DNA from: Xestospongia bergquistia
Lineage: Eukaryota > Porifera > Demospongiae > Haplosclerida > Petrosiidae
Assembly: GCA_963965975.1 (NCBI GenBank)
Contig: OZ014417.1
Span: forward strand, 5,685,821 to 5,749,820
DNA: 64,000 nucleotides
Reading direction: 5' to 3'
The notes beneath the pieces were generated by a model. It was not told the DNA's origin. It made no database searches and saw nothing but the letters and a program-made list of their open reading frames with translations. This document shows, one piece after another, positions 6,930 through 63,176 of the stretch. A program made the position numbers and the translations under genes. Numbering within the stretch: position 1 is the stretch's first letter; each line of letters opens with the position of its first letter.

Positions 6930-9394
6930 TGATAAATGTTTTATGTATATGAATCATAACAAATATGATTTAAGATATAACTAACTCAGATTGTGTATTA
7001 TGTGGTATAAGTTTTTTTCAGTCAAAATTTGACAGATTTATTTACTATCAAACTCCTAATACTGATGTAGTAGTGTAAAATAACTCCATTTAACAAAAAT
7101 GGTTGTTCCTATGAAACCTTGACAGATGAATTGGATAGCACATTGACAGTCATATGATGTATAGTGCCCGGCTCTATAATTCACCGATGAAGGAGTTGTC
7201 AAATCAATTCTTTTCATTTATCCATTCCTTTTGTATGTGTATCCATCCATCCAACAATCTAACCTGTCTGTTCAGTTGTATTGTAGGCATAGTCTGACCG
7301 AGGTCCTTCTCCTCCTCTAGTTGTAGCTGAGATACTTACTAACACTTGTTGATAGGGTTTTAGTCCCTCCAAGAGATGCGCTATGAACTGACTAGTTACA
7401 GTTCTAGTAGATATCTCACTACTATTAGTATAGTTGATGTACAGAGTATAGTGAGTAATGATACCATTAGGTATCAATTGAGGCTTCCATTGAATTAGAA
7501 GTGATGAAGAATTAACAACACTAACTGTAACATTAACTTGAGAGTCATCAGGAGCTAAATTAAAATTTTATGATCTAATTAATAATAATTAGTTTGTCAT
7601 TTACCATCTTCTAATGTAGTAAAATTAATACACAGTGTTTTTCCTATTCCATTAGTTGTCTATTGAGATGTCACACAGCACACTGCCTTTCCATCCACTG
7701 ACACATGTACAAGTGTCAGGAGCTGTACATTGTTTGTTAGTGCCACATGTTAACTGCAAATTGCTGCATTGAGAGGAAATGATAATGTGTCCACAAGAAA
7801 ATGTAACCATACGTATTAAGCAGTCACTGCCTTTCTATCCACTGAGACATGTACAAGTGTCAGGAGCTGTACATTGTCTGTTAGTGCCACAAGTTGAACT
7901 GCAAATTGCTGTGTTCAGAGGAAACAAAAATTATAATGTGTCAACAAGAAAATGTAACCATATGTGTTTAGCAGTTACTGCCTTTCCATCCACTGACACA
8001 TGTACAAGTGTTAGGACCTGTACATTGTTTGTTAGTGCCACATGTTGAACTGCAAATTGCTTGTTGAGAGGAAACAATAATTTGTCCACAAGAAAATGTA
8101 ACCATACGTAGTAAGCAGTCACTGCCTTTCCATCCACTGACGCGTGTACAAGTGTCAGGAGCTGTACATTGTTTGTTAGTGCCACATGGTGAACTGCAAA
8201 TTGCTGCATTGAGAGGAAATGTGTCCACAAGAAAATGTAACCATACGTATTAAGCAGTCACTGCCTTTTCATCTACTGAGACATGTACAAGTGTCAGGAG
8301 CTGTACATTGTCTATTAGTGCCACATGGTGAACTGCAAATTGCTGTGTTGAGAGGAAATGATAATGTGTCCACAAGAAAATGTAACCATACGTATTAAGC
8401 AGTTACTACCTTTCCATCCACTGAGACATGTACAAGTGTTAGGTGCTGTACATTGCTTGTTAGTGCCACAAGTTGAACTGTAAATTGCTGGTAACAAAAA
8501 TCATAATATGTCAACAAGAAAATGTAACCATATGTGTTAAGCAGTTACTGCCTTTCCATCCACTGACACATGTACAAGTGTTAGGACCTGTACATTGTTT
8601 GTTAGTGCCACATATTTAACTGCAAATTGCTTGTTGAGAGGAAACAATAATTTGTTCACAAGAAAATGTAACCATACGTAGTAAGCAGTCACTGCCTTTC
8701 CATCCACTGACGCATGCACAAGTGTCAGGAGCTGTAAATTGTCCGTTAGTGGCACATGTTGAACTGCAAATTGCTAAATTATGATATTATAATCTTTTGT
8801 GTATATAAATAACAAGTACAACTTACGTAGACAGTTTGTGATATGACCATAACCTGAACAACATTGCAGTTGAAGATTGTAAGTCACTTTGTATTTTGTC
8901 ATAGTATTAGTACTATATTATAGTATAAATATGTATTTATTATTGCTGTATTATTAGCATGTACTATCTAAGAAGATAAGCATAAAAATGTATTGCTTTT
9001 AGCTAAGTTTTGTTGCTAAATATATTTAAGATTTTTTAAACAATGTGAAGAATAATCTAATTAATAGAAATATTGTTAGCTTATTGTGGATTGAGTGATG
9101 TCATATGTATTATTAAAAGCAAAATTTAAGTATAAATACATAACAAATATTTAATAGAAAGCATTATACTAACCTACTTTGACAATCACTTCTTTTCCTA
9201 GCACCACATGAGTTGTAAGTTACATAGTATCCAACATATGATGTTTTTAAAGCCACAGATACATATTGTGAGGAAGAAGCTACAGCATGACAACTGTATA
9301 TGATAAGACATATTACAATAATACAATCTCATGGTAAAGCTTACCTATCCATCAAAACTGTATAACAGAACAAAACAATCACAAGCTTCTTCAT
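6930..9394 (-). pseudogene. Locus B, inverted 5' half: signal peptide-EMI-EGF array-FN3 (broken)
   Basis: Minus strand: signal exon 9394-9345 (MKKLVIVLFCYTVLMD), EMI exons 9293-9174 and 8912-8827 (both open, good splice sites), then eight EGF units from 8773 down to about 7680. Decay of the array is clear. Unit 1 has a Cys to Phe change. Unit 2 has a TAA near its start and a lost donor. Unit 3 has Cys to Tyr, unit 4 TGG to TGA, unit 5 Cys to Arg, unit 6 TAA and a lost donor, unit 7 TGG to TAG. Unit 8 is frameshifted and fused at about 7680 into the end of FN3 1. FN3 2 (about 7553-7263) is mostly open. FN3 3 runs to about 6930, where homology to locus A ends. Confidence 0.85.
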
Positions 9395-10344
9395 TTTAGA
9401 GTTTCAACACTAACTGTAAAATTAAAATTTTATATAGTTTTAATAAAGCTGGTGTTTTTATCTCTAAATTAAAAAAAATACACAAATAATGCCATTAGAT
9501 ATTTAACACATTCTTTAAATATAGAGGATGGCTGTACACTATATAAAATTTCTACATTTCAGCACAATGTACAACCCTAAACTTATCTCTGAACACACAT
9601 GTTTATGTTTAATTTAATTGTGTATGTACAGAGTTCATTGATTTAAAAGTTAGAAATTTCAAGTTGTCATTAAAGAAACAGCTTGTCCAATGTTTGATAG
9701 GTGTTTGTTGTGTATAATGTTACACTTACCTGAATGTGACAGGATGGTCACTTATTGCTATATTATCATTGTTTGCCATACCTTGTATACCTGAAACAAT
9801 AATAAGTTTTGTAATTTTGTGGTAGACATCAAGTTAAGAGCTACTATTTGATTTGTTTGTTTATTTTCATACAGTTCTATTGATGTGAAACTGTTCTGAG
9901 TTAATTTGTATTTCTATACATCTTACTTATCATAGTTGACATTTTCCTTAAACAGATCATATTGAAAAACAACTTTTCATTTTAGAAAAAGGTCTTCAAT
10001 TCATACATCATGTTAAATATAAGTAAGCCCAGTACCTCTATATTGATCATTCAAAAAAGTTCTGGCTGTATTAATGCAGAATATGTTTGAAGATATTCTA
10101 ATGTCTAAGAATTCCCTATTAATACTATTATATATCTGTTATTTCCACATAGTATGTTGATAAATGATGTGATTAAAGAATTGATTGGTGAGATATTTAA
10201 ATTAAAAGTAGAGAAGGAAATTACAAAAAAGAAATGGATATCTGCCTTTGGCTTCCATTGATTTAATAATTTAACTTTATTCTTATCTCATGATTCTTTA
10301 TTTTTCTCTTAGATGTAATCAATTGAAGTAGAAAATTGTCAAAT
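9395..10344 (-). other. Upstream region of locus B, inverted with its 5' half
   Basis: No gene. The stretch about 10150-10340 matches the reverse complement of about 54740-54930, which lies upstream of locus A (shared for instance TTTGGCTTCCATT and TTTATTTTTCTCTTAGATGT). It is therefore the 5' flank, and possibly the promoter, of locus B carried along with the inverted 5' half. I see no specific promoter motif. Confidence 0.6.
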
Positions 10345-12550
10345 AGAATTATTTTATACTACTACATCAGTTTTAAGAGTTTGACAAAAAATCAATCTGT
10401 CATACTTAATCTTGAAGAAAACGTATACAAAATAAACAATCTGAGTTGGTTACATCTTAAATTATATTTGTTATAATTTATATACTATTTATAGCTCCTT
10501 ATACTCCATATGAAGTTAATATCTCTGTAGTTACCATTGCTGGTATAGGAGAACCATTGCATAAAGTATTTTTTACTAAAGAGACAGGTAAATCTTAAAG
10601 ACACAAGTATATAAATAATAAATGAATTATAAAATTAAGTCATATTGTTTACAAATTGTTTACTTTTCTGTAGTCCCCAGAGTGGCTCCAAACATTGAGC
10701 TAGCACAGAGAGTTTCCTCAACTTAAATAATCATAAAAATTAAGCCACTAACACTAGAAGAGGGAAGAGGAATTGTGACAGGATATTACTTTAATCTGAC
10801 TAAATCATTAGATCATTGTGTTGTGGCTGACATGAACAAATTATTAATACATACTCTTAATACTTCAATTAAAGTAGGAAATCTGGATCCACTCTCAAAA
10901 TGTTGTTTGTCAGTGTCAGCACAAATTAAAGAAGGACATGGTTTGGAATCTCAAAATATACTAATTCCTGGTTAGTTTAGTTTTAACTAAATTTTACATT
11001 ATACCTTTAAAGTGTATGACAACAAACTGATTGTTATGTATATCAATGGATTGGATAACTGTTCTCTGTGGATAGTAAGTTATATAACAATGACAAATAT
11101 TACAATACAATTTCTTATTATAATAGCTAAATAAAACTGAAAGTAAACTCACTGAGATTACTCAGGTCATAATTAGAGTGTTGAATAAAGTCTGTTATTG
11201 TTCAATATCTTCAGACTATATATCAGATAGCACTTTACAATGTGACAGTGAACATACAATAAAAATGAGAGCAAGATTATCTGCTATATCTAATTGCGCA
11301 ACATCACAACTTTTGACTGTATTACAAAATTGGACAGCAAATACTTTAGAGATAATAGTTGATGGACAGGTGTTAAGAGTGACATCAGTTTATTTTCTGT
11401 CAAATGATTCAATGCCAGTACTCACTAGTGGCACTTCAAAAGACAAAGTGATTTTATTCAGTACAATTGGTTCTACTGGTGGCTTGTCATTTTTTCTTTG
11501 TGTTTCTTGCATAATAATATCAGTTTGTATTTTTAAGAAGTTTAAATCAAAAAGAAATTATAAACTAAAACCAAGGTTTGTCTTTTAATATAATTAAAAA
11601 AAAAGATTATGCCATTTCAATATATACAGAGCACATAAAATGAAAGGAAAGATGATGACAATATATTTTGTACATGATAACAATGATATTTCTCCAAATA
11701 GGTAATCAGACATTTATCACAACATGATATTTAATGTAGAACTTTCAATGTTTTTTAGAATCTAAAGCTTGTTATGATGACATGATAATAACTGAAAATT
11801 CCATTAAAAAATATGTAGGATATTGTATGTGATCTTGTTGTGAGTAATTGCGATGTACCTGTTTTTAATATCTTGAGTAATATTACTAACAATTGCATTG
11901 CATAATAGTAATATAATAATAGTAATATTACTATTATTATATTCCTACTATTACTGGTACAAAAACAAAGTAAGTAAATAAATTCTTATGTTGTCCTTAG
12001 AAATGTTAAATGCCATGGTATAATTACAGTATACTTCTGAGTACCTAAAAGAAACCAACTCCTCTTGTTCCCCCTCCTAAGAAAACAAGGTAAACCAGTC
12101 ATATATAATCATGACAACACTGTACATATACACTATAATAAACATGGAACCTCAGACATAGAACATTTTGATATTCATTATAATTATAGTTATGGCAAAG
12201 GAATGACTTCACAAAGGAAACCAATTCCTCCAGTTTCTCCTCCAAAGAAAGCAAGATACACCAGTCATAAACAATGATGATATATATTGTACACATATAA
12301 CTATAGTAAACATTGAGCCTCAAATTTAGAAAACTTTGAAATGTCATACAATTATCGTTATGGCAAACGAATGCATGCACAAAAGCAACCAATTCCTCCT
12401 GTTCCTCCTCCTAAGAAAGCAAGGTAAACCAGTCATATCTAATGATGATATACACTGCACATATATACTATAGTAAACATGAAGTCTCAGATGTAGAACA
12501 TTTTGAAATGTCATACAATTATGATTATGGCAAAGGATTGCATGCACTTC
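10345..12550 (+). pseudogene. Locus B, 3' half: FN3 3-4, juxtamembrane-TM and tail cassettes (broken)
   Basis: Plus strand, starting inside the FN3 3 exon. Parts: 10345-about 10448 (FN3 3a, partial), 10495-10587 (FN3 3b), 10674-10970 (FN3 4, one in-frame TAA near its start), 11013-11074, 11127-11575 (juxtamembrane and TM, fully open; helix around LCVSCIIISVCIF), about 11633-11701, then four tail cassettes from about 12033 to 12550. In the first cassette CAA has become TAA; the second has lost both its AG acceptor and GT donor; the third has an early TGA; the fourth runs into 3' flank sequence. The open TM exon suggests the loss of function is not ancient. Confidence 0.85.
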
Positions 12551-13700
12551 AATGTCAAAGTTGTGCTAGTAAACTTTACTAGTAGCAATATAATTCAGTA
12601 GAATTACTAAATAAGTAATATGAAGATGGTTTTGTTCTTAATATTGATACACATAATAGTCTCTTCTCTTGCTTCTTGCTGATGCCATGCATGTAAGAGA
12701 TGTGGCTCATTTATTGTGTTACACTTCCTTTATTAGGCTGTGGGCTTGTTTAGCATTTACTACATGAGTAATACAACAATCAATGTAGTTGATTAATCTT
12801 TAATAATTGTTGTATAAAAGCTAATTTTATTATCTACTTTCAAATATGAAGCCAGTCTGCTTGAGTCGTAAGTACCTCAAGCTATATTAGTAATAAATAT
12901 CATGGAATAAGATTCCTTTGGATAACTGCATTTTAGTAATCCAGTATATACATACCACAAGTCATTTTGGGATTATCGTGAAATTACCACACCATTAATG
13001 TATAGGACCATGTGTCCAAAACAGTATACCTAGTCCATCCTTGGACTGTACTAGCTTAAGGACACATAGGTCCATTGTGTCTGAGTACTTCAGAATACCC
13101 TGATACTATTCTGGGATAACCGCAATATAGATGGATGTGGACCCATTGTGTCTGAGATTCCCAGGTGTCTTTGGAATCTCAGGAAATTCTGGTACTAGCA
13201 TGATAACCACACCCACACTTAGGCATTCTTATACAATATAACCACAGTATAGATCCATGAATGAGCCCATTGTGTCCAGGATAATAACACTGATGCATTA
13301 AATATTAATGTGAGCATCCAGGGTAGTACAGGGATATACTGAGGTACTTATCACACCAAAAAATACTCAGATACAATTGGTTCGTGCATTCATGGTGTGG
13401 TCATCCCAGGAGAGTGCCAGGATATCCCAAGGAACTTAGGACACCCAGAAAACGAAGGATAATTACTTTGATACCATTACTTGACAGAGTGAGGCAACTC
13501 TAAATATTAAAGAATATTAGAGACATTTCTATCACTACACCATATTTGGAAGTTATAATATTTTGGTATATATTTTTAAGAGACCTGATTTGTTTTGTGA
13601 TTGCTTACAAGATCGATATAAGTGATATAAAATTGTTAGTGTTAAATATTGAGTACAAAGTCTAAATGTGACTGGATAATGACAGGATGTCATTAAACAT
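12548..13700. repeat. 3' flank of locus B with degenerate tandem repeat
   Basis: Shares order and sequence with 63265-64000 downstream of locus A. About 12955-13470 holds an irregular repeat of phrases such as CCATTGTGTCTGAG, CTGGGATAACC and CTGGTACT. No coding potential. The match shows that the duplication creating loci A and B included at least 0.7 kb of 3' flank. Confidence 0.65.
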
Positions 13701-16638: not shown

Positions 16639-19600
16639 TTGGCGATGAGGTATTGTAACGTTCCCACGACCATGTCATCCGTTGGTAAAATTGAATCGTT
16701 TGACCCTACTCAAGAGACTTTTCCCTGCTATGTGAAGAGAATTAAGAATTTCTTCTCCGCTAACGAGGTTGCTGATGCTAAACAAAAGTATGTATTCTTA
16801 AATTCACTTGGTAGAAAGGTCTACAACCTATTGTCAAATCTCTTAAGCCCCGCTGAACCAGAAGAAAAATCTCTTGACGAACTTATCACCGTGTTGACCA
16901 AGCATTTCCAGCCAACTACATCGGTCATCGCCAAACGATACTCGTTTCATTGCCGTTGTCAGACCCCTAATGAAAGTATAGCTGACTTTATTGTTGGTTA
17001 AAGAAGTCAATTACTTGTTGTCAGTACGAGCCTCATGTGCAAAGTATATTACTCAGAGACCGTTTCGTGTGTGGCTTGGCCCAGGAGGCAACTCGAAAAT
17101 GCTTGCTCACGGAGGACAATGATGTCATGTTCGATCGAGCTGTGGAAATAACCACCAGTGGGGAGAGAACATCTGTTCAAGCAAGGCAGATGAAAATGCT
17201 GGACAGCAAGGTATCAGTGAACCAGGTGAAAGGCAAGCAGCAGACTAGTTATCCCGTCAACCCTCCCAAAGTTTGTTACCTTTGTGGGGGAACTCATCTA
17301 GCTACCACGTGTCGTTTTGTTCATGAAACTTGTTGAGCATGTGGCAAGACTGGCCATATTGCCAGAGTGTGTTGAAGCAAATGCTCAGAGCATGGTACAA
17401 GTTCCCGAGGATCCGGTAGCTCAAGAACTGATCCTCGTATCGGAACACATCTTCTTGAAGTTTCCAACTCGTCTTCAGATCCATCTCCTAGGACAAGCAG
17501 TAACCCTTCTAGTTCAACAACTACTGCATCATCTGAAGTATATACAATGTTTCCAGTGGTTACCAGATCCAAACCGTTCACCCTGTCCGTTATGATTATT
17601 AACCATCCACTCCCTATGGAATTGGATACGGGAACATCAGTTTCTGTTATTAGTGAGTCTACCTACAATACAGTGTTGAAGGATACTGTACCCTTGGAGT
17701 CAACAGATATTAGCCTACGTACGTATATGGGGGAAGAGTTACCAGTGTTAGGTGTGGCCACAGTTGCTGTCGGCTATGAGTCGCAAACAGCGTCTCTTCC
17801 ATTAGTGGTCAGTAAAGGTGACGGAGCAGCCCTGTTTGCCGTAATTGGCTAGAATGTATCAAACTGAATTGGTCTGTCATTCATAGTGTGTCTAACAATC
17901 TGGAGGTGGATGTCCTGCTCCAGAAACATCAACAGTTATTCCGCGAGGAGTTAGGAACTCTCAAGGACGTAGAAGCTCAAATACATGTTCTACCCAATAC
18001 ACAACCTCGTTATTTCAAACCTAGGCCATTGGCATACTCACTAAAAGCCAAATTGGAGAAGGAGCTTGAACGGTTGCAGGAAGCTGGAGTCATCAGGCCA
18101 GTCCAATTTTCAGACTGGGCAGCTCCGATAGTACCTATTGTGAAAGTGGATGGAAGCATCTGCATCTGTGGTACTATAAGGTGACAGTCAACACTGTGTC
18201 AAAATTGGACAATTACCCATTACCGAGAGTGGACGACTTATTTACTGCAATGTCCGGAGGAAAAGTATTTTCCAAACTCAACCTCACACATGCTTACCAG
18301 CAGGTGCTGTTATCAGAGAGTTCAAATAAGTATACTACGATAAACACTACCAAAGGTCTTTTTGAATACCAACGAATACCATTTGTCATATCATCAGCAC
18401 CAGCCATTTTTCAACGAGCAATGGAGGGCTTATTTCAAGATTTACCTGATGTCATAGTTTATTTAGACGATGTGCTGGTGACAGGTCCAAATAAGGAAGA
18501 ACATCTCAAGAACCTTGATAAGGTGATGGATCGCCTAAAATCGGCTGGAGTAACTCTGAAGCAACCCAAGTGTATTTTTCTGGCCCCATCTGTCGAGTAC
18601 CTGGGACATATAATTGATAAGGATGGTCTGCACCCTGCACCTGAAAAAGTCCGAGCAATTCAGGATGCCCCTGAACCACATAACTTGTCAGAACTAAAAT
18701 CCTTCCTGGGACTCATAAACTATTATTCTAAATTCATGTCTAACCTTGCCATGTTTCTTTCTCCCTCTATAGGTTGATGCAAAAAGATGTTAAATGGTCA
18801 TGGACAAAAGTACACTCTGAAGCATTCAAGCAAGCCAAACAGCTATTACAATTGTCCACCGTGTTAGTTCATTATGATAGTGAACAAGAACTGATTGTGT
18901 CTTGTGATGCATCACAATATGGATTGGGTGCCATTTTAGCCCATAGGATAGACGACAACTCTGAGAAACCCATTGCTTTTGCCTCCCGTACTCTCGCTAA
19001 AGTGGAGCAGAAATAATCACAAATTGAAAAAGAGGGGTTAGCCATAATATTTGCAGTAAAAAAAATTCCATCAATATTTGTATGGACGGCCCTTCACTAT
19101 CTATTCAGACCATAAGCCCCTGAAATATCTTTTTAATGAATCCAGACAAGTGCCAGTGATGGCTTCCTCAAGAATACAGAGATGGGCATTGACGTTAGGA
19201 GCATATCAATGTAGTATCCAACATCGACCTGGGAAAAAGGTGGATAATGCAGATGCCCTAAGTCGGTTACCACTTCCAGAACATCCAAAGGTGTCAGACA
19301 TTCCACCACCAGGAGATATTAAGATATTATTCCAGCACTTTTCAGACACTATAATAACTGCCTCTCATATTCGCAAATGGACAGAAAAAGACCCTACATT
19401 ATCAAGAATTCACCACTACCTCCTTCACGGTTGGCCAAAAACAATTTCTGATTCCTCCTTTTGACCTTACTTCAATCCTCGTGAAGAACTGAGTGCTGTA
19501 GATGGCTGTATTCTCTGGGGGGCTAGAGTTGTGATTCACCCACCTGGACGCAAGTTAGTATTATCCCAACTTCATGATACTCACCCTGGGATTTGTAAAA

Positions 19601-20645
19601 TGAAGAGTCTTGCTCGTTCGTATGTCTGGTAGTCAGGGATGGACACTGATATCGTTACCACTGTTCAGCACTGTGACACTTGTCAACAACATAGACCGTC
19701 TCCCCAAAGAGCTCCCCTTCATCCATGGGAATGGCCTTCACGCCCATGGTCCAAAGAGCACATTGACCACGTGGGTCCATTTCAAGGGAAGCTTTTCCTA
19801 GTACTAGTGAACGCACATTCCAAGTGGATAGAGGTACATATAGTTCCCTCTACATCAGCTGCATCGACTATTGCCAAATTACGAGACATCTTCACTACAT
19901 TTGGTCTCCTGGAGCAAATTGTGTCAGATAATGGTTCCGGCTTTACTAGTGTAGCGTTCCAGCAATTTTTAGCGGCCTATGGAATAAAACAAGTCCTCAC
20001 ATCGCCATACCACCCATCGTCCAATGGACTACCTGAGAGAGTGGTACAGACATTCAAGAATGCAGTAACAATGTTAGATGGCCCAATGGAAGTGAGACTC
20101 AGTAAGTTCTTATTTAAATATCGTATTACCCCTCAGACAACAACAAGACTCTCTCCAGCTCAACTTTTGATGGGGAGGAGGTTGAGGACTCATTTGGATC
20201 TACTTCACCCGCATACAGCTGCGCAAATGAATTACAAGAAGAAGAAAAGTATTTCAGGAAGAGCGCCGAAACAATTTGAAGTTGGAGAAAAGGTATATGC
20301 CAAGAATTTCCATGGACCGAAATGGATTACAGGGAGGATAGTTAAAGTTACAGGACCTGTGTCATACCAGATTGAAACAGATGAAGGATTACTCTTACAA
20401 AGACATGTAGACCAGCTGAGAAGACAATATGCAGATGAAACAAGTGAGTCAGACACCCAATTACCCTCATGCGTTGATGATGAGTGGGTTGGACAAGATG
20501 GGTTCTCTGGTAATTTCCTAACGCCTATAATCCTCGGAGGTCCTATCCCCTCAACTGATGGAACAGCTCCTATCCGACATTCCATCCGGTCTCGTCCACC
20601 AGTTGACAGATATTTACCCTCATGTCACACTTAAAGGGGGAAGAG

Positions 20646-23009: not shown

Positions 23010-23460
23010 CCACATCAGGTGCTGCAGGTATCCCCAAGTCTCCAATAGGTTAGTTTGTCTCTTACTTTTATAATATTCATTGGTATAATAATCCAGCCTC
23101 TAGTACTTAATCTCAGACATGTTCTTAGTCTCAAAAGGCAACTACTGTCAAGTCTCCTATAGGTCAGTTTGTTTGTTATCTTCGATATTATTCATTGTTA
23201 TAATAATCTAGCCTATTCTAGCCTATGGTACTCAGTGTCAGACACGTTCTCAATCTCAAAAGACAACCTCTGCCAAGTCTCCAATTAGTCAGTTTGTCTG
23301 TTTCCTTCTATATTATTCACTGTTATAATCAAGTCTCTGATACTCAGTCTTGGATACATTTTCAGTCTCAAAAGACAACCACTGTAAATTCTCCAATAGG
23401 TCAGTCTGTTTGTTTTCTTCTATATTATTCATTAGTATAATATACTTGGTTGAGGTGAAG
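23010..23460 (+). repeat. Tandem repeat, about four units of about 115 bp
   Basis: Repeating phrases: TACTCAGTCTCAGACACGTT, CTCAATCTCAAAAGACAACC, AAGTCTCCAATAGGTCAGTTT, TATATTATTCATTGTTATAA. Diverged single units also occur at about 16260-16335 and about 20883-20960, directly flanking the LTR element. Confidence 0.7.
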
Positions 23461-32665: not shown

Positions 32666-35215
32666 TGTTATAACTTATTTCTCATGATTATTATTTCTTG
32701 TGATCATTATGTATTATGTTGATGTAATTATAGTTCGTAACTTCTAGTTTTGTATGTATATATGTCATTTTTTTGTTGGGTAAAAATCGGTTGTTGTCAT
32801 TGTTGTGATTATTGTAAATTGTCAATCATTCTTGTTCAGTGACAAAGATCTCGTGGGATCATTCGTATTCACTTACTACCAGTCGTAACATTACTTGGTG
32901 ACTAGGGTAAACATACCAGATCGATGGCGACACATGGCAAAATCTCTACTTTTCATGCTGGCACAGAGACATGGAAATCATACTTGGAAAGATTCGGGGT
33001 TTATTTCAGTGCAAATGATATTGAGGATCCAGGGAAGAAGTGATCCATACTGCTGACTGTATGTGGACCTCCCACATACCAGCTTTTCAAAAGTCTCCTC
33101 CAGCCAGCCAGTGCTGCAGACAAAACAAACAACGAACTAGTTCAAACCTTGAACAATCATTTCATGATCAATCCTGCCATTGTCCAATGTTTTAATTTAA
33201 TATGAGAATTCGCAAATCTGGTGAATCTGTTGCAACTTATATTGCTGAACTTAAACCTCTCCGAGGACACTGTTGATTTGGAGAGCAACAAAATGAAATA
33301 GTACAAGATCAACTCATGTGCTGTATGAATGATAACCACAAACAACGACATTTACCTCTTGAGATTTCACAGGCAATGGAAGGGGCAGCTCATGATATCA
33401 ATGATTTACAGAAACAATTGCCAACTATTGCAACAGTGCAATGTCTACAAGTACAAAAATCAAAATTCTTATCATGTTATTGATGTGGTAGCAAACATCT
33501 CACTAGTACCTGTCGTTTTCAACAAGCTGAATGTCATAATCATGGCAAAGTTGGCCATATTGCAAAGGTTTGTTGCAGTAAAACAAAAAAGGTATCAAAG
33601 AAAACCTCAAGAGGTCAAACCACACATTCTATATCACCAGACTCACCTCTTGCTGATGAAACTCCAACCATCTCCACCAGTGTCTCCACAGCAACCATGC
33701 AGTAATGTGTATGATCTCTTCCCAGTCAAAGGCAAGACCAACCCTATTGTTTTGACAGTTTGTGTCAAGAAGGCAGTCCTTCCCATGGAATTAGACGCAG
33801 GGGCTTCCCTGTCCTTAATTAGCAAAGATACTTATAAATCCGTTAGTAGTGTTAATGACAAGTTGAAACCTATAGATGTTTCCCTTCTCACCTATACAGG
33901 AGAAACATTGGCTGTTTTAGGATACGTAGATGTCCAAGTTGAATATGAGTCACAAGCCCTTATCCTTCCATTAATTGTTGTGAAAGGGCATGGTCCAAGT
34001 TTATTGTGTCCTAATGTAATTGTCCTGTCTACTGTGTCTGCATGTCACTCTCGTATTTACTATGTCCCATGTTGGAAGTGCAATATACTGTGTCCTAATT
34101 AAATTGTCCTGTCTACTGTGTCGTAACATAATTGTCCTGTCTACTGTGTCCTAAAGTAATTGTCCTGTCTACTGTGTCTCATGTTAGTTTTGCCATCTAC
34201 TGTGTCCTAATGTAATTGTCCTATCTATTATATCCAATGTAACTGTCCCATTTACTCTGTCGTAATATAAATGTCCTGTCTACTGTGTCTTAATGTAATT
34301 CTCCCATCTACTGTGTCCTCTGTTAGCTGTCCCATCTACTATATGAGCTGTAGGATCTACAGTTAATCGAGTATGAAACTCTTGTAGTGTTCCTAGCCGA
34401 TCATGAAAAAGATTCTAATGTTATAGCAATAAGTTATCTAAGGCAGATGAGATAATGACAGTGTGAATAGTAAACCAGTTTAGTTTAATTTTCTTAAGCC
34501 AGTTTTGCCCGACCTTGTTTTTTCAAACCTCGACCGGTACCATATTTACTCAAACAGAATGTTGAGAAAGAGTTAGCACGGTTACAAAATCTCGGTATCA
34601 TTACACCAGTATCATTTTCAGATTGGGTTGGTCCAATTGTTCCTGTTGTGAAAAGTGACACTAATATTTGTATTTATGGTGACTACAAGGTGACTATTAA
34701 CCAAGCCTCTCAGATGGACTCCTATCGATTACCTAGTGTTGATGACCTTTTTGCAGTTCTGTCAGGTGGAACTATTTTATCAAAACTCAATCTCAGTCAT
34801 ATATACCAGCAGATATTATTCAATGACAATTCAAAAAAATTTACAACAATCAACACTCATAAGGGATTGTTTCAGTATCAGAGATTACCTTTTTGGCATT
34901 TCTACTGCACCAGCATTGTTTCAACATACAATGGAAAGTCTCCTACAAGGACTAACAAAAGTATATATCTATATCGATGATATTCTGGTTGCAGATGTTA
35001 ATGAACAGGATCATTTACATTATTTAGGCAAGTTTTAGAGTGATAAGAGTCTGTTGGACTGTCTCTGAAGAAGTCAAAATGTGTCTTTATGACAAAATCA
35101 GTGGAATACCTAGGTCATGTCATTGAGGCTAGTGGCCACCATCCCTCAAGAAGTAAGGTAAAAGCCATTAAAGAAGCTCCAGAGCCTACTAATAATACTG
35201 AATTAAAGTTTTTGA
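32666..35215 (+). mobile_element. Ty3/gypsy retroelement fossil, 5' part, with inserted minisatellite
   Basis: LTR candidate 32666-32890 (starts TGTTA, ends TAACA), followed by the primer-site-like TGGTGACTAGGG and a gag-like region from about 32925 (ATHGKISTFHAGTETWKSYL). Next come a zinc-knuckle region near 33.48-33.57 kb, protease near 33.78-33.95 kb, a repeat array at 34.0-34.35 kb, and reverse transcriptase at about 34.5-35.2 kb (IDDILV present). It ends before RNase H, and no 3' LTR was found. Broken in many places. Related to, but clearly diverged from, the element at 16.4 kb. Confidence 0.8.
34000..34350 (+). repeat. Degenerate minisatellite inside the 32.7 kb fossil
   Basis: About eight to ten imperfect units of the form TGTCCTAATGTAATTGTCC plus TGTCTACTG, between the protease and reverse transcriptase regions of the element. 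Not found elsewhere in the window. Confidence 0.75.
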
Positions 35216-55745: not shown

Positions 55746-56137
55746 ATGATGAGGCTCTTGATTGTTATATTTTGTTATACAGTTTTGATGGATAAGTAAG
55801 TTATATTATGACACTGTATTATTGTAATCTCTGTTATGATATACAGTTGTCATGCTGTTGAATCTTGCTCAGACAATGTATCTGTATCTTTAATAAGACC
55901 ATATGTTGTATATTATTCTTATATACGGTGTACCTTTTTCGATGGACCTTTTTGTCCAAATAGGTTAGTATAATACCCTCTATTAAATATTTTTTATTTG
56001 TTTATGATTAAATTTTGATCATAATAAAACAAGACATCATGCAATCCAAAATAAGCTAACAATATTTTCTATCATTTGAATTATTATTGACATGGGTTAG
56101 AAACTTTTAATATATTTAACAACAAAATGTAACTAAA

Positions 56138-56177
<40 letters not shown>

Positions 56178-56329
56178 TTATTTTCTAAATAGTACATGCA
56201 AATAATATAACAATAACAAATACAAGTTTATATTATAACATAGGACTCACACTATCACAAAATATAAAGTGATTTACAATCTTCAACTTCAGTGTTGTTC
56301 AGGATATGGTCCTAAACGAAACTGTCTAT
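55746..56329 (+). other. Signal peptide and EMI domain exons of locus A
   Basis: Exon 55746-55795 encodes a basic-hydrophobic leader (MMRLLIVIFCYTVLMD). Exon 55847-55963 encodes an N-terminal EMI half with the motif RPYVVYYSYIRC and a following Cys near FCPN. Exon 56244-56329 completes it with LQLQCCSGYG, the Cys-Cys-x-Gly-Tyr-Gly end typical of EMI domains. Phases are 2, 2 and 1. EMI domains often sit directly before EGF repeats in secreted or surface proteins, as here. The same three-exon layout recurs in the two paralogous loci. Confidence 0.8.
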
Positions 56330-59300
56330 GTAAGTTATACTTGTTATTGATATACACAGAACATAATAATATCATAATTTAGCAATATGCAGTTCCCAAT
56401 GTGGCACTAACATGGAATGCTCAACTTTTGATACTTGTACATGTATCCATGGATGGAAAGACAGTTACTGCTTACTAGGTATGATTACTTTTTCTTGTGG
56501 AGACATAATTATTGTTTCCTCTCAACACAGCAATTTGCAGTTCAAAATGTGGCACTAACAAAAACTGTACAGCTCCTGACAATTGTACATGTGTCAGTGG
56601 ATGGAAAGGCAGTGACTGCTTAACACGTATGGTTACTTTTTCTTGTGGAGACATAATTATTGTTTCCTCTCAACACAGCAATTTGCAGTTCAAAATGTGG
56701 CACTAACAAAAACTGTACAGCTCCTGACAATTGTACATGTATCAGTGGATGGAAAGGCAGTGACTGCTTAACACGTATGGTTACTTTTTCTTGTGGAGAC
56801 ATAATTATTGTTTCCTCTCAACACAGCAATTTGCAGTTCAAAATGTGGCACTAACAAAAACTGTACAGCTCCTGACAATTGTACATGTGTCAGTGGATGG
56901 AAAGGCAGTGACTGTTTAACACGTATGGTTACTTTTTCTTGTGGAGACATAATTATTGTTTCCTCTCAACACAGCAATTTGCAGTTCAAAATGTGGCACT
57001 AACAAAAACTGTACAGCTCCTGACAATTGTACATGTATCAGTGGATGGAAAGGCAGTGACTGCTTAACACGTATGGTTACTTTTTCTTGTGGAGACATAA
57101 TTATTGTTTCTTCTCAATGCAGCAATTTGCAGTTCAACATGTGGCACTAATAAAGAATGTACAGCTCCTGACACTTGTACATGTGTCAGTGGATGGAAAG
57201 GCAGTAACTGCTTAACACGTATGGTTAGATTTTCTTGTGGACATATAATTATTGTTTCCTCTGAACACAGCAATTTGCAGTTCAACATGTGGCACTAACA
57301 TGGAATGCTCAGCTCCTGAGACTTGTACATGTGTCAGTGGATGGAAAGGCAGTGACTGCTTAACACGTATGGTTACATTTTGTTTTGGACACGTTATAAT
57401 TATTTTTCCTCTCAAAACAGCAATTTGTAGTTCAACATGTGGCACTAATAAACAATGTACAGCTCCTGATACTTGTATATGTATCAGTGGATGGAAAGGC
57501 AGTGATTGCTTAACACGTATGGTTACCTTCAGTTGTGGACACATTATAATTATTTTTCCTCTCAAAACAGCAATTTGCAGTTCAACATGTGGCACTAACA
57601 AACAATGTACAGCTCCTGACACTTGTACATGTGTCAGTGGATGGAAAGGCAGTGAATGCTTAATACGTATGTTTACATTTTCTTGTGGACACAATGCAAA
57701 TGTTGTTTCCTCTTAACACAGCAATTTGCAGTTCATCATGTGGCACTAACAAACAATGTACAGCTCCTGACACTTGTACATGTGTCAGTGGATGGAAAGG
57801 CAGTGAATGCTTAATACGTATGGTTAGATTTTCTTGTGGGCATATAATTATTGTTTCCTCTGAACACAGCAATTTGCACTTCAATATGTGGTACTAACAA
57901 ACAATGTACAGCTCCTGACACTTGTACATGTGTCAGTGGATGGAAAGGCAGTGAATGCTTAATACGTATGGTTAGATTTTCTTGTGGACATATAATTATT
58001 GTTTCCTCTGAACACAGCAATTTGCAGTTCAACATGTGGCACTAACATGGAATGCTCAGCTCCTGAGACTTGTACATGTGTCAGTGGATGGATAGGCAGT
58101 TACTGCTTAACACGTATGGTTACATTTTGTTTTGGACACGTTATAATTATTTTTCCTCTCGAAACAGCAATTTGTAGTTCAACATGTGGCACTAATAAAC
58201 AATGTACAGCTCCTGATACTTGTATATGTATCAGTGGATGGAAAGGCAGTGATTGCTTAACACGTATGGTTACCTTTTGTTGTGGACACAATATAATTAT
58301 TTTTCCTCTCAAAACAGCAATTTGCAGTTCAACATGTGGCACTAACAAACAATGTATAGCTCCTGACACTTGTACATGTGTCAGTGGATGGAAAGGCAGT
58401 GAATGCTTAATACGTATGTTTACATTTTCTTGTGGACACAATGCAAATGTTGTTTCCTCTTAACACAGCAATTTGCAGTTCATCATGTGGCACTAACAAA
58501 CAATGTACAGCTCCTGACACTTGTACATGTGTCAGTGGATGGACTGGCAGTAACTGCTTAACAGGTATTGTTTACGTTGATATGACAATGACTGTTTAAC
58601 AGGTATGGTTATATATTCAGTGGAACTCATTATATAGTCTAATAACAACACGTAATTTGTAGTGTTTATATTGAGATAATATGATGATATGAAGAATTAG
58701 TAATTTGCGATAATCAACAAGACAATAACATTAAATATACTGCTATTGTATTATTGACAATAGATATCAATGAATGTTCATTAAACTCATGTCAAGTTCA
58801 TTGTACTAATACTAATGGATCATACTACTGCTCCTGTGATGCATCAACACTCCTTGCTTCTGATGGAATTCATTGCCTAGGTAGATAACAAAGTGTCTAT
58901 GAAAGAGATTACTCTCAATAACTTGGATTGTGTTAAGCACATTAGTCTTCTAATAACATTTTTACACATATATAAAGGCTTTATAATGACCACATTTATT
59001 TAAAGGATGTAAAGAATGTTCTACAATAAAGTACATAATTAAATATATTGTAGAAATAACTCCTTTTTTCCTGCATAGGAGGAATTCAAGTCATGACCAT
59101 TTCACAACTTACCAGTACACACTGCATAATAACATGGAATCCTCCATTTCAGTACATACAATATGGAAGTTTTCATGGTTACATAGTGATGTGTAATATA
59201 TCAATTACTAACTCTGTAATAGAATCAGATACCACTCAGAAATTGAATGTCTCTGTAATATTTCTAAAACCATTTACTCCATACATTTGCTGTGTCACAC

Positions 59301-62300
59301 CTCAATGGACAACTATTGGAAGAGGAAAAACACAATGTATTAATTTTGCTACATTACAAGATGGTAAGTGACAGACTAGCATCTATTAATTTTGTTGGAA
59401 ACTTCCAATTTAGCTCCTAATGACTCTCCAGTTAATGTTACAGTTAGTGTTGTTAATTCTTCATCTCTTCAAATTCAATGGGAGCCTCCATTGATACCTA
59501 ATGGTATCATTACTCGTTATACTCTGTACATCAACTATACTAATAATAGCGAGATATCTATTAGAACTGTAGATAGTCAATTGATACTATATCATCTGGA
59601 GGGACTGACACCCTATCAACTAGTAGGAGTAAGTATCTCAGCTACAACTAGTGGAGGAGAAGGGCCTCAGTCAGACTATGTGTATAATACAACTGAACAG
59701 ACAGGTTAGATTGATTGTTGGATAACTATACATACAAAAGGAATAGATACATAAAAAGGATTTGTAAACATTGTGATATCTTTTTCATATGGTGAACTAT
59801 AGAGCCAGGAGCAATACATCACTTGACTATCAATATGCTATCTAATTCATCTGTCAACATTTCATGGGAGCCACCATTGATATCAAATGGAATTGTTTTG
59901 TACTACTACATCAGTTTTAGGAGTTTGACAGAAAATCAATCTGTTGTACTTAGTCATGAAGAAAACATATACACAATAAACAACCTGAGTTGGTTACATA
60001 TTTAATTATATTTTTCAAAATTCATATACTATTTATAGCTCCTTATACTCCATATGAAGTTAATGTCTCTGCAGTTACTATTGCTGGTATAGGAGAACCT
60101 TTGCTTAAAATATTTTTTACTAAGGAAACAGGTAAATCTTAAAGACACAAGTATATATATTAAATGTATTTTAAAACTAATATTTATATCTTCCAATTTT
60201 TGTAATTCTCTGTAGTCCCAAGAGTGGCTCCAAAGATTAAATTAGCACAGAGAGTTTCTTTAACTGAAATAATCATTAAAATAAAGGCTCTAACACTTGA
60301 AGAAGGGAGAGGAATTGTGACAGGATATTCCTTTAAACTGACCAAATCAATAGACTATTGTCTTGTGGATGACATGAACAATTTATTAATACATACTCTT
60401 AATACTTCAATTAAAGTAGGAAATCTGGATCCACTCTCAAAATATTGTTTGTCAGTATCAGCACAAACTAAAGAAGGACATGGTTTGGAATCTCAAAATA
60501 TACTAATTCCTGGTTAGTTTAGTTATAAGTATAACTAAAAATTTTACATCATAGCTTTAAAGTGTATGTCAGCAAACAGTTTGTTATGCATATCAATGGA
60601 ATGGATAACTGTTATCTGTGGATAGTAAGTCATATAACAATGACAAATTTTATAATACAATTTCTTGTTATGATAGCTAAATAACACTGAAAGTAAATTG
60701 AATGAGATTACTCAAGTCATAATTACAGTGTTGAATAAAGTCTGTTTTTGTTCAGTAACTTCAGACTATATATCAGATAATGCTTTACAATGTGACAGTG
60801 AGCATACAATACAAATGAGAGCAAGATTATCTGCTATATCTAATTACAAAACACCACAACTATTGACTATATTACAAAATTGGACAAGAGGTACTTCAGA
60901 AATAATAGTTGATGGACAAGTGTTAACAGTGACATCAGTTTATTTTCTTTCAAATGATATGACTCCAATACTTCCAACATCAAATAATAATACAAAAAAC
61001 AAAGTGGTTCTATTCAGTGCAATTGGTTTTGTTGGTAGCTTGTCATTTTTTCTTTTTGTTTGTTGCATAATAATATCAGTTTGTATTTTAAAAAAGTTTA
61101 AATCCAAAAAAAATTTCAAATTAAAAACAAGGTTTGTCTTTTAATACAATTAAAACAAATGTTGTCATTACAATATATACAGAACACAAAAAATAAAAGG
61201 AAGAAACAATGACAATGAAGATTTAGAAGCAGAAACAAAGTTTCATGATGAACAGTACTTTGTATGTGATAACAATGATATTTCTCCGAATAGGTAATCA
61301 GATATTTATCACAAAATGATATTTAATATAGAGTTTTCAAAAGTTTTGTAGATTCTAAAGACTATTATGATGACATTATAATAGCTGAAAATTCCAAAAA
61401 AAAGTATGTAGGATATTATATGTAATCTTGATGTAAGTAATTCGGGTGTACCTGTTTTCAATATCTTGAGTAATATTACTAACAATTGCATTGCATATTA
61501 TCATTTGTTAGGCCAATGATCCCTACAAAATTAAGTCAAGGAAAAGTAAAGGAAAGCAAATGTACAAGTACAGCTATTAGTACAAAAACAAGGCAAGTAA
61601 ATAAACTCTCATGTTGTCCATAGAAATGTTAAATGCCATGATATAATTATAGTATATTTCGGAGTACCCAAAAGAAACCAACTTCTCCTGTTCCTCCTCC
61701 TAAAAAAACAAAGTAAACGAGTCATATACAATGATGATATACACTGTATATACATATATACTATAGTAACCATGGAGCCTCAGATGTAGAACATTTTGAA
61801 ATGGCAAACAATTATAGTTATGGCAAAGTAATGCCAACACAAAAGAAACCAACACCTCCTGTCCCCCCTCCTAAGAAACCGAGGTAAACAAATTATATTC
61901 AAAGATGACATCACTCTACAAATATACTATAGTAACCATGGAGCCTCAGATGTAGAACATTTCGAAATGGCAAACAATTATAGTTATGGCAAAGTAATGC
62001 CAACACAAAAAAACCCAACACCTCCTATTCCCCCTCCTAAGAAACCGAGGTAAGCCAATTATATTCAAAGATGATATCACTCTACAAATATATTATAGTA
62101 ACCATGGAGCCTCAGATGTAGAACATTTTGAAATGGCAAACAATTATAGTTATGGCAAAGTAATGACAACACAAAAGAAACCAACACCTGTTCCCCCTCC
62201 TAAGAAACCGAGGTAAACAAATTATATTCAAAGATGATATCACTCTACAAATATACTATAGCAACCATGGAGCCTCAGATGTGGAACATTTTGAAATGGC

Positions 62301-63176
62301 AAACAATTATAGTTATGGCAAAGTAATGCCAACACAAAAGAAACCAACACCTCCTGTTCCCCCTCCTAAGAAACCGAGGTAAACAAATTATATTCAAAGA
62401 TAACTTCACTCTACATATATACTGTAGTAACCATGAAGCCTCAGATGTAGAACATTTTGAAATGGCAAACAATTATAGTTATGGCAAAGTAATGCCAACA
62501 CAAAAGAAACCAACACCTCCTGTTCCCCCTCCTAAGAAACCGAGGTAAACAAATTATATTCAAAGATAACTTCACTCTACATATATACTGTAGTAACCAT
62601 GAAGCCTCAGATGTAGAACATTTTGAAATGGCAAACAATTATAGTTATGGCAAAGTAATGCCAACACAAAAGAAACCAACACCTCCTGTTCCCCCTCCTA
62701 AGAAACCGAGGTAAACAAATTATATTCAAAGATGACTTCACTCTACATATATACTGTAGTAACCATGAAGCCTCAGATGTAGAACATTTTGAAATGGCAA
62801 ACAATTATAGTTATGGCAAAGGAATTCAGGCACAAAAGAAACCAACACCTCCTGTTCCCCCTCCTAAGAAAACAAGGTAAACCTGTTATGTTCAGTGATG
62901 ACATAACTGTACATGTAGTAACCATGGAGCCTCAGATGTAGAAAATTTTGAAATGTCATACAATTATGGTTATGGCAACGAAATGCCTTCACAAAAGAAC
63001 CCAACCCCTCCTGCTCCTCCCCCTAAGAAAGCAGGGTAAATTAATCATATATAATGATTACATACACTCTGTTCTATAGTAAAAATGGAACCTCAGATGT
63101 CGAACAGCTTGAAAAGCCATATTATTATTATAGTTATGGCAAAGAAGTATCTGCACAAAAGCACAGAATTCTTTAG
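55746..63176 (+). CDS. Locus A: EMI-EGF(x15)-cbEGF-FN3(x4)-TM receptor with repeated cytoplasmic cassettes
   Basis: Spliced gene reconstructed from GT-AG boundaries and codon phase. Exons: 55746-55795 (signal peptide, starts MMRLLIVIFCY), 55847-55963 and 56244-56329 (EMI), fifteen 96-nt EGF exons 56383-58564, 58764-58880 (cbEGF), 59079-59363, 59414-59704, 59803-59988 plus 60039-60131, 60216-60512 (FN3 1-4), 60563-60624 and 60677-61131 (juxtamembrane domain and TM helix), 61183-61293, optional 61512-61592, ten tail exons 61653-63176. The exons sum to about 1586 codons with no internal stop. This predicts a type I surface receptor or adhesion protein; no kinase or other enzyme domain is seen. 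The tail carries YSYG tyrosines and PPVPPPKKP motifs, so SH2/PTB and SH3 partners are plausible (inference). The weakest boundaries are the acceptor at 60562 and the exons between 61131 and 61653. Paralogs lie at 39.1-41.7 kb and 6.9-12.6 kb. Confidence 0.85.
56143..56176. repeat. (TA)n microsatellite in an intron of locus A
   Basis: About 34 bp of TA repeats in the intron between the two EMI exons. Confidence 0.9.
56383..58564 (+). repeat. Tandem array of 15 EGF exons in locus A
   Basis: Fifteen 96-nt exons, each a 32-residue six-cysteine EGF (core CGTNKxCTAPDxCTC then VSGWKGSxC), separated by introns of 52-55 bp. Starts: 56383, 56531, 56679, 56827, 56975, 57123, 57271, 57421, 57571, 57722, 57870, 58018, 58168, 58318, 58469. 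All exons are phase 1-1. Units 2-5 are nearly identical in exon and intron. Units 6-10 and 11-15 form a second-level duplication with a 747-bp offset. The short CxC spacing and the lack of the DxNEC start mark them as non-calcium EGFs. The sequence shortly after the last unit (about 58586-58600) is the tail end of one more, lost EGF. Confidence 0.9.
58764..58880 (+). other. Calcium-binding-type EGF exon of locus A
   Basis: Phase 1-1 exon of 117 nt. It encodes DINECSLNSC at its start, then TNTNGSYYCSC and DGIHC. This fits the cbEGF pattern (D-x-N-E-C, and N followed by aromatic residues between Cys 4 and Cys 5). It is a single copy between the EGF array and FN3 1, and the same exon is kept in locus D at 40704-40588. 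Confidence 0.85.
59079..60512 (+). other. Four fibronectin III domains of locus A
   Basis: FN3 1: 59079-59363 (TWNPPFQY near the start, LKPFTPYICCVTP near the end). FN3 2: 59414-59704 (WEPPLIPNGIITRY, LEGLTPYQLVGVSISA). FN3 3 is split by an intron at 59989-60038: 59803-59988 (SWEPPLISNGIVLYY) and 60039-60131 (TPYEVNVSAVTIAG). FN3 4: 60216-60512, more diverged. All outer boundaries are phase 1. The W, PNG-x-I-x-Y and L-x-PYT/Q-Y landmarks match the FN3 B, C and E-F strands. Many N-x-S/T sequons are present, as expected for a glycosylated ectodomain. Confidence 0.85.
60563..61131 (+). other. Juxtamembrane domain and transmembrane helix of locus A
   Basis: Exon 60563-60624 (VYVSKQFVMHINGMDNC) joins phase 0 to 60677-61131. 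The extracellular part has about 110 residues with several cysteines (NKVCFCSV, LQCDSEHTIQMR) and matches no family I can name. It ends in a hydrophobic stretch from about VVLFSAIGFVGSL to FVCCIIISVCIL, followed by a basic stop-transfer KKFKSKKN. The same exon is open in locus B at 11127-11575 with mostly conservative changes, which supports its being coding. Confidence 0.75.
61512..61592 (+). other. Possible optional 81-nt exon with a GC donor in locus A
   Basis: It is preceded by TTAG and followed by AG/GCAAGT, the usual context of a GC-AG intron. Read in phase 2-2 it is open and basic (for example KLSQGKVKESKC). Its length is a multiple of 3, so it can be included or skipped. The matching stretch of locus B is replaced by a short AT-rich repeat, with only the 3' end recognisable near 11960. 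Confidence 0.4.
61653..63176 (+). repeat. Tandem array of ten cytoplasmic-tail exons in locus A
   Basis: Exons: 61653-61712 (short first unit), 61767-61883, 61933-62049, 62099-62212, 62262-62378, 62428-62544, 62594-62710, 62760-62876, 62919-63035, and a diverged last unit 63080-63176 ending in TAG. The full unit is 117 nt (39 residues; one copy lacks a proline codon) plus an intron mostly of 49 bp, giving a 166-bp repeat. All units are phase 2-2. Each unit carries ASDVEHFEMANNYSYGK and PTPPVPPPKKP. The latter contains PxxPxK, a class II SH3-ligand pattern; YGKV also fits a Yxx-phi sorting motif. Exons and introns are nearly identical between copies, so duplication is recent or copies are being homogenised. 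Confidence 0.88.

Follow-up and report, generated by a model that had tools for sequence, protein, structure and literature searches.

A predicted sponge receptor whose cytoplasmic tail carries a tandem array of exons encoding candidate SH3 ligands

Here, we describe a predicted receptor gene of the sponge Xestospongia bergquistia in which ten tandem exons encode repeated cassettes of the cytoplasmic tail. The gene lies in a stretch of 64,000 nucleotides that was analysed as a whole and is referred to as the window (assembly GCA_963965975.1, contig OZ014417.1, positions 5,685,821 to 5,749,820, forward strand). The array is real and coding and extends on the forward strand from 61653 to 63176, from the first base of exon 30 to the last base of the stop codon in our gene model, which is where it had been placed by an original prediction made from the letters of the DNA. 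It occupies an open frame in the tail, differs in copy number between paralogues and is enriched in SH3-ligand motifs. We consider it probable that this array forms the SH3-ligand tail of a kinase-less single-pass receptor and that exon copy number sets its docking valency. Each 39-residue exon would contribute one linear SH3 ligand (PPVPPPKK, class II overlapping class I) and a conserved N-Y-x-Y-G-K patch. Unequal exchange between 166-base units would have changed the exon number, which would be neutral to the reading frame because all tail introns are in phase 2, and the number of SH3 sites would consequently differ among the paralogues of the cluster. By default all cassettes would be spliced together, their sites would recruit SH3 proteins and, by analogy with nephrin, more sites would lower the threshold for clustering and signalling; the tyrosines may have a role of their own.

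The gene model joins 39 exons at in-phase splice sites, giving one open frame of 1,606 residues whose sole stop is terminal (Table 1). The predicted protein comprises, in this order, a signal peptide, 15 EGF exons, an EGF_CA unit, FN3 domains, a membrane-proximal domain, one transmembrane helix and a cytoplasmic tail of 460 residues, 68 of them prolines and 25 tyrosines. The strongest hydropathy windows all fall near residues 1118-1149 and are followed by lysine-rich sequence, and the coding cytoplasmic tail that had been predicted is supported by the single open frame and by the position of the array behind one strong transmembrane helix. In Pfam scans the fn3 family scored 123.3 bits over four stretches and EGF_PEAR1L (PF23301) 40.8 bits with a cut-off of 37.5, whereas EGF_CA stayed at 22.6 bits, under its 27-bit cut-off; an EMI-like segment was recognised by eye from its CC-GY pattern, with Pfam EMI absent up to E = 1. 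No kinase family was detected in residues 1-181 or in the 777-residue stretch from EGF_CA to cassette 2, and none of the matches listed for PF07714 lies inside the window. The membrane-proximal domain may have a SEA-like order of helices and strands, but its structural model is of low confidence: the AlphaFold model, built from nine sequences, reached a mean predicted local distance difference test score (pLDDT) of 53 and was too poor for a fold search.

The array consists of a short first exon, eight full cassettes (seven of 117 nucleotides and one of 114, all within 61767-63035) and a last exon. Exons 30-38 are in phase 2-2, whereas exon 39 begins in phase 2 and closes with the stop codon, so that the original statement that every exon is phase 2-2 applies to all but the last. 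All nine introns inside the array are in phase 2 and measure 54, 49 (six times), 42 and 44 bases, in agreement with the expectation that most would be 49 bases long. However, phase 2 is not special to the array, because all 13 introns behind the membrane exon share it, including those upstream of the array. Tandem Repeats Finder reported a period of 166 and 8.9 copies for 61669-63144 (score 2131), and a direct-repeat search found ten in-register copies of a 56-base core; copies are spaced by exactly 166 bases in five of eight steps and by 163, 159 and 161 in the remaining ones. The proposed 166-base unit is thus confirmed. Five units of equal length differ pairwise at 1 to 14 of 166 bases, a similarity beyond chance that identifies them as duplicates, and the units of cassettes 5 and 6 differ at one base. 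Only one of the six frames is free of stops across all eight full cassettes. Just ahead of the array, the donor of exon 29 at 61592 seems to be of the GC type (AG followed by GCAAGT).

Genome searches, whose match counts are lower bounds, returned at least 136 cassette matches, all listed on one contig (C7, 3.47-6.56 Mb), which group into at least 41 arrays. Matches to the membrane-proximal exon number at least 69, of which 66 lie on C7; at least 34 have E below 1e-50, and all 34 of these are on C7. Within 32 stretches totalling 233,665 bases, a cassette profile hidden Markov model (HMM) finds 34 arrays, a count that includes decayed relatives and arrays cut by the ends of the stretches. A typical array opens with a short exon encoding the proline half, continues with a variable number of full cassettes and closes with a last exon that terminates early. 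The number of full cassettes per array ranges from 0 to 10, with 14 arrays having none, six having one, three having two, four having three, one having four, two having five, and one each having 7, 8, 9 and 10; the variable docking number that had been proposed is therefore found between paralogues. In one paralogue (C7:6268876-6270038), four short exons are mixed with three full cassettes, and because these four carry just the proline half, the arrangement suggests that the proline half may be the unit that pays and has been propagated on its own. Of 153 HMM hits, 73 are full-length (72 of at least 110 nucleotides and one exon of 102) and the other 80, being partial first, last, short or broken exons, were left out. 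Motif counts, the ratio of nonsynonymous to synonymous change (dN/dS) and a tree were computed on the 71 cassettes of exactly 120 nucleotides, flanking bases included. The tree has few columns and leaves many forks open. Five arrays, of two to seven copies each, form one side of a branch each (four starred, one with support of 94/91) and look independently expanded, while the cassettes of the window gene and its two nearest relatives intermix in one group that holds older shared and newer own copies.

Two further relatives of the receptor lie in the window itself. A decayed one occupies 7200-9400 on the reverse and 10100-12560 on the forward strand, its EGF part being inverted with respect to the FN3, membrane and tail part; three cassette hits are found in its tail, where one cassette match bears a stop and one lacks consensus splice sites. 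The other, at 41300-39092 on the reverse strand, has an FN3 exon that by eye runs in frame into a last cassette, and it lacks the membrane-proximal and transmembrane exon, as would a secreted form or the remnant of a deletion.

At the motif level, the SH3 half of the interpretation appears to hold. Compared with residue shuffles of the same 71 cassette peptides, which served as controls throughout, the strict class II SH3-ligand consensus is found in 44 cassettes (shuffled mean 1.0), the class II pattern PxxPx[KR] in 48 (7.8) and the class I consensus in 49 (7.9). In the window gene PxxPx[KR] is present in nine of the ten array exons. The original prediction assigned both NYSYGK and PPVPPPKKP to each cassette; the exact forms occur in only seven and four of the ten array exons, respectively, and the looser P-x-PPPKK is present in nine, the last exon having no proline motif. 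The tyrosine half of the proposed SH3-ligand plus tyrosine cassette fared differently. The patch N-x-x-Y is kept in 67 of 71 cassettes (shuffled mean 8.3), yet the canonical SH2 motifs are absent or depleted: YxxI/L is found in no cassette (7.6), YxxP in one (21.9) and YxN in four (8.4). All three lie under their shuffled means. The tyrosines are thus conserved without forming any of the tested types of SH2 site, and a reading as immunoreceptor tyrosine-based activation or inhibition motifs (ITAM/ITIM) was dropped on account of the missing YxxI/L. Likewise, NPxY occurs in none of 73 cassettes and nowhere in the tail of the window gene. YxxI is the kind of site preferred by Src SH2 domains; the sole one in this tail is the YDDI of exon 28, outside the array, which recurs in seven of the ten best matches of that exon (E below 1e-3).

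The coding nature of the cassettes is well supported across the family, stops being nearly absent. Among near-full-length matches (query position 3 or lower to 38 or higher; 90 of 136 rows), 87 are stop-free. The three exceptions belong to the decayed relative in the window, to a match that runs into a normal last-exon stop and to C7:6455146, where the nearby membrane exon match bears a stop too. When the consensus was mutated with the observed spectrum, 4.4% of changes created a stop, which would amount to about 20 stop-making changes over the roughly 450 changes on the cassette tree in the absence of constraint, with the caveat that the 71 rows of the tree were themselves selected for open frames. 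Both the AG acceptor and the GT donor are present in 67 of the 73 full-length cassettes.

Several results weigh against a functional docking tail. The dN/dS is 0.87 between genes (2,321 pairs), the tyrosine patch being at 1.29 and the proline part at 0.96, and within 11 arrays it ranges from 0.44 to 2.14 and exceeds 1 in five (two at 1.01); amino-acid constraint on the cassettes therefore appears modest or uneven. Exons diverge more than introns in two of seven arrays (5657516 and 6151365) and nearly as much in a third (6167578), 14 of the 34 arrays have no full cassette, 23 of the 71 cassettes have no PxxPx[KR], and no cassette-bearing relative was found outside the genome among the 7,981 candidates sharing most words that were scored. 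Much of this is what would be expected if the array were coding and functionally loose, that is, if unequal exchange altered the length of a disordered tail that tolerates any length and copy number had no meaning for signalling. The near-neutral ratios, the exon divergence, the range from 0 to 10 cassettes and the loss of a consensus splice site in six of the 73 full-length cassettes would all fit such a tail. On the other hand, the near absence of stops, the spacing of prolines, which is far from that of the shuffled peptides, and the conservation of K38, N16, Y19 and P31 in 67-70 of 71 cassettes speak for constraint, and in the window gene itself the exons are half as divergent as the introns (0.069 vs 0.135; within-array dN/dS 0.44). 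We therefore regard a loose tail as possible, if somewhat unlikely. That the array is instead a dead, intronic or antisense repeat is highly improbable: decayed relatives do occur in the window, with a stop-bearing cassette at C7:5698125 and one at C7:5697960 without consensus splice sites, but the window gene has a complete frame with splice sites, and its eight full cassettes are open in one frame only.

The original prediction had further proposed that subsets of cassettes are alternatively spliced, such that one gene yields tails of many valencies. The internal tail exons, all in phase 2-2, would permit this, and some paralogue cassettes lack an AG acceptor in otherwise open arrays, where skipping costs nothing. 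Moreover, retention of any one of the nine introns in the window gene's array would bring in an in-frame stop, GTAA being read as a stop when in phase 2, and in nine of nine cases this stop falls right after a proline motif, so that incomplete splicing would generate a ladder of tail lengths; by this arithmetic, poor splicing could also yield shorter tails under our own proposal. Against regulated inclusion stand the array introns, which are uniform and minimal (42-54 nucleotides) and as short as most others in the gene. Such introns are typical of constitutive, intron-defined splicing, and we find it unlikely that subsets of cassettes are chosen in this way. Less likely still, in our judgement, is that the proline motif serves EVH1, WW, profilin or atypical CIN85-type SH3 domains and makes the tail a cytoskeletal or endocytic anchor. 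YxxPhi is a pattern of endocytic signals, and it appears as YGKV in six cassettes of the window gene, which is an exception, as the family-wide count (17 of 71) is under the shuffled mean of 23.8. The EVH1-like pattern is found in 12 of 71 cassettes (shuffled mean 2.0), but is absent from the tail of the window gene, and PPxY occurs in none of the 71. PxPxP[KR], present in 45 of 71 cassettes (shuffled mean 1.0), is close to the PXXXPR consensus quoted for CIN85 SH3 domains (PMC10786037).

A docking tail with exon-encoded valency would have partial precedents. The statement that intracellular arrays of docking exons are much less common than extracellular ones needs to be qualified, since titin PEVK is an intracellular SH3-ligand exon array: it is described as 114 exons of proline-rich repeats that interact with the SH3 domain of nebulin and whose splicing sets length (PMC8553726). 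Both systems use many exons to encode disordered, proline-rich intracellular repeats, and the window gene shares with PEVK the tandem exons of one phase (30-38, 2-2) and an SH3-ligand consensus per repeat. Titin differs in being a soluble sarcomeric spring rather than a receptor tail, and in that control of splicing by Rbm20 is described for it there (PMC8553726). In the nephrin-Nck-N-WASP system, clustering of the receptor in vitro is reported to depend strongly on how many sites are present, and this number determines the concentration required (PMC4238058). There the phosphotyrosines are on the receptor and the proline motifs on N-WASP, whereas in the sponge gene the proline motifs would sit on the receptor, whose repeated tyrosines match none of the canonical SH2 motifs examined.

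The ectodomain resembles that of MEGF10, PEAR1 and Draper in having a cysteine segment followed by short EGF repeats, in line with the EGF_PEAR1L match above cut-off; unlike them, the window gene adds FN3 and membrane-proximal domains, and its tail has neither NPxY nor a YxxI/L pair. The Alr complex of Hydractinia is another cluster of duplicated receptor genes in an early-branching animal, with Ig-like ectodomains, as opposed to the EGF and FN3 ectodomain of the sponge gene. To our knowledge, most known receptor exon arrays diversify the exterior of the cell. Among the papers listed in searches of the open-access literature, none was found, by title and abstract opening, to report docking motifs repeated by tandem exons within the tail of a receptor, which is no proof of absence. 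What may be new here are thus receptors in which the number of exon copies encodes the docking valency inside the cell, intracellular SH3-ligand exon arrays themselves being known from titin. A family with 0-10 full copies provides a natural series for asking if valency evolves as exons are simply gained and lost, and it does so in a lineage of animals close to where tyrosine-kinase signalling arose.

Candidate partners are encoded in the same genome. On a second contig (C6, 1.62-1.71 Mb) the match lists contain at least 10 tyrosine-kinase and 14 SH3 matches, and one locus read there (L040) contains an SH2 part and a Src-type kinase, named by eye; the expanded Src-like kinases of this genome are perhaps among the SH3 proteins that would be recruited. 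A kinase exon recurs within the receptor cluster, with seven occurrences from 6.33 to 6.51 Mb, of which two are partial. One more lies at 6.94 Mb, and 17 further matches on other contigs bring the total to 25 at E of 1e-20 or lower. One of the cluster loci (L069, C7:6485600-6488400) reads by eye as a cysteine segment, two EGF units, a serine/proline stalk, a transmembrane helix and a tyrosine kinase. This putative receptor tyrosine kinase with EGF units is like the window gene in the kind of cysteine segment and EGF units that it carries; the latter gene contains FN3 domains and gave no kinase match in the parts scanned. One cluster thus holds both predicted kinase-bearing and predicted docking-tail receptors, their EGF ends being similar. 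We offer, as a doubtful extension of our proposal, that a fast-changing clustered family of recognition receptors might set its signalling gain by germline exon copy number at both ends, EGF outside (phase 1) and SH3 ligands inside (phase 2), with polymorphic repeat number acting as a heritable clustering dial and the kinase-bearing relatives phosphorylating the docking tails.

Table 1. Features of the predicted receptor gene (positions in the window)
Feature	Position	Strand	Basis
Whole receptor gene, 39 exons, 1,606 residues (predicted model)	55746..63176	+	open frame, Pfam
Exons 1-3: signal peptide and EMI-like cysteine segment (both by eye)	55746..56329	+	
Fifteen EGF-like exons, 96 nucleotides each, all phase 1-1; second, extracellular exon array	56383..58564	+	
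EGF_CA exon, sub-threshold	58764..58880	+	Pfam
FN3 exons (four fn3 stretches) and short exon preceding the membrane-proximal domain	59079..60624	+	Pfam
Exon 26: membrane-proximal domain and predicted transmembrane helix (about residues 1118-1149)	60677..61131	+	hydropathy, genome matches
Exons 27-29: juxtamembrane tail, phase 2-2; one PxxPxK in exon 29	61183..61592	+	
Exon 28, carries YDDI	61344..61403	+	
Exon 30: short first cassette, proline half only	61653..61712	+	
Cassette 1 of 8	61767..61883	+	
Cassette 2	61933..62049	+	
Cassette 3, 114 nucleotides, one codon lost in frame	62099..62212	+	
Cassette 4	62262..62378	+	
Cassette 5	62428..62544	+	
Cassette 6	62594..62710	+	
Cassette 7	62760..62876	+	
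Cassette 8, NYGYGN and PPAPPPKKA	62919..63035	+	
Last cassette exon, tyrosine half only, stop TAG	63080..63176	+	

Outside the genome, five proteins matched the receptor at E of 0.001 or lower. Two are JGI proteins without a name, at identities of 35% and 31%; two come from sponges, one from Dysidea avara and the other from Ephydatia muelleri; and the fifth is a fibrillin-like protein of lamprey that covers 4% of the query. With the membrane and tail part as query, the 7,981 scored candidates gave nothing at E of 0.01 or lower, and a search of PDB sequences with one cassette returned two matches at chance level (E 1.1 and 1.8). A query from FN3 to tail retrieved 184 proteins; among the best 120 of the 184, proteins with FN3 domains prevail (PTPRQ, sidekick and titin are examples), and we judged these to have FN3 domains in common with the receptor rather than to be orthologues.

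Exon arrays of other kinds were also encountered. A gene at C7:5889805-5896947 on the reverse strand contains EGF units with a 147-base period within a single open frame of 2,394 codons. In the 601 bases read, its intron-like pieces keep GTATGT...ACAG, contain no stop and have a length divisible by three, and because of this they could be read spliced or unspliced. The same open, intron-like arrangement recurs at C7:6043581-6044624 with a 141-base period over 348 codons. In the window, 23035-23442 on the forward strand holds about 3.5 copies of a unit of 112-125 bases, with Ser/Gln-rich exon-like and short intron-like parts; stops are seen by eye, and the unit is perhaps a decayed exon array. 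Finally, frames resembling Ty3/gypsy-type protease, reverse transcriptase and integrase were recognised by eye at 154-786, 17376-20634 and 33329-34980 of the window, all on the forward strand.

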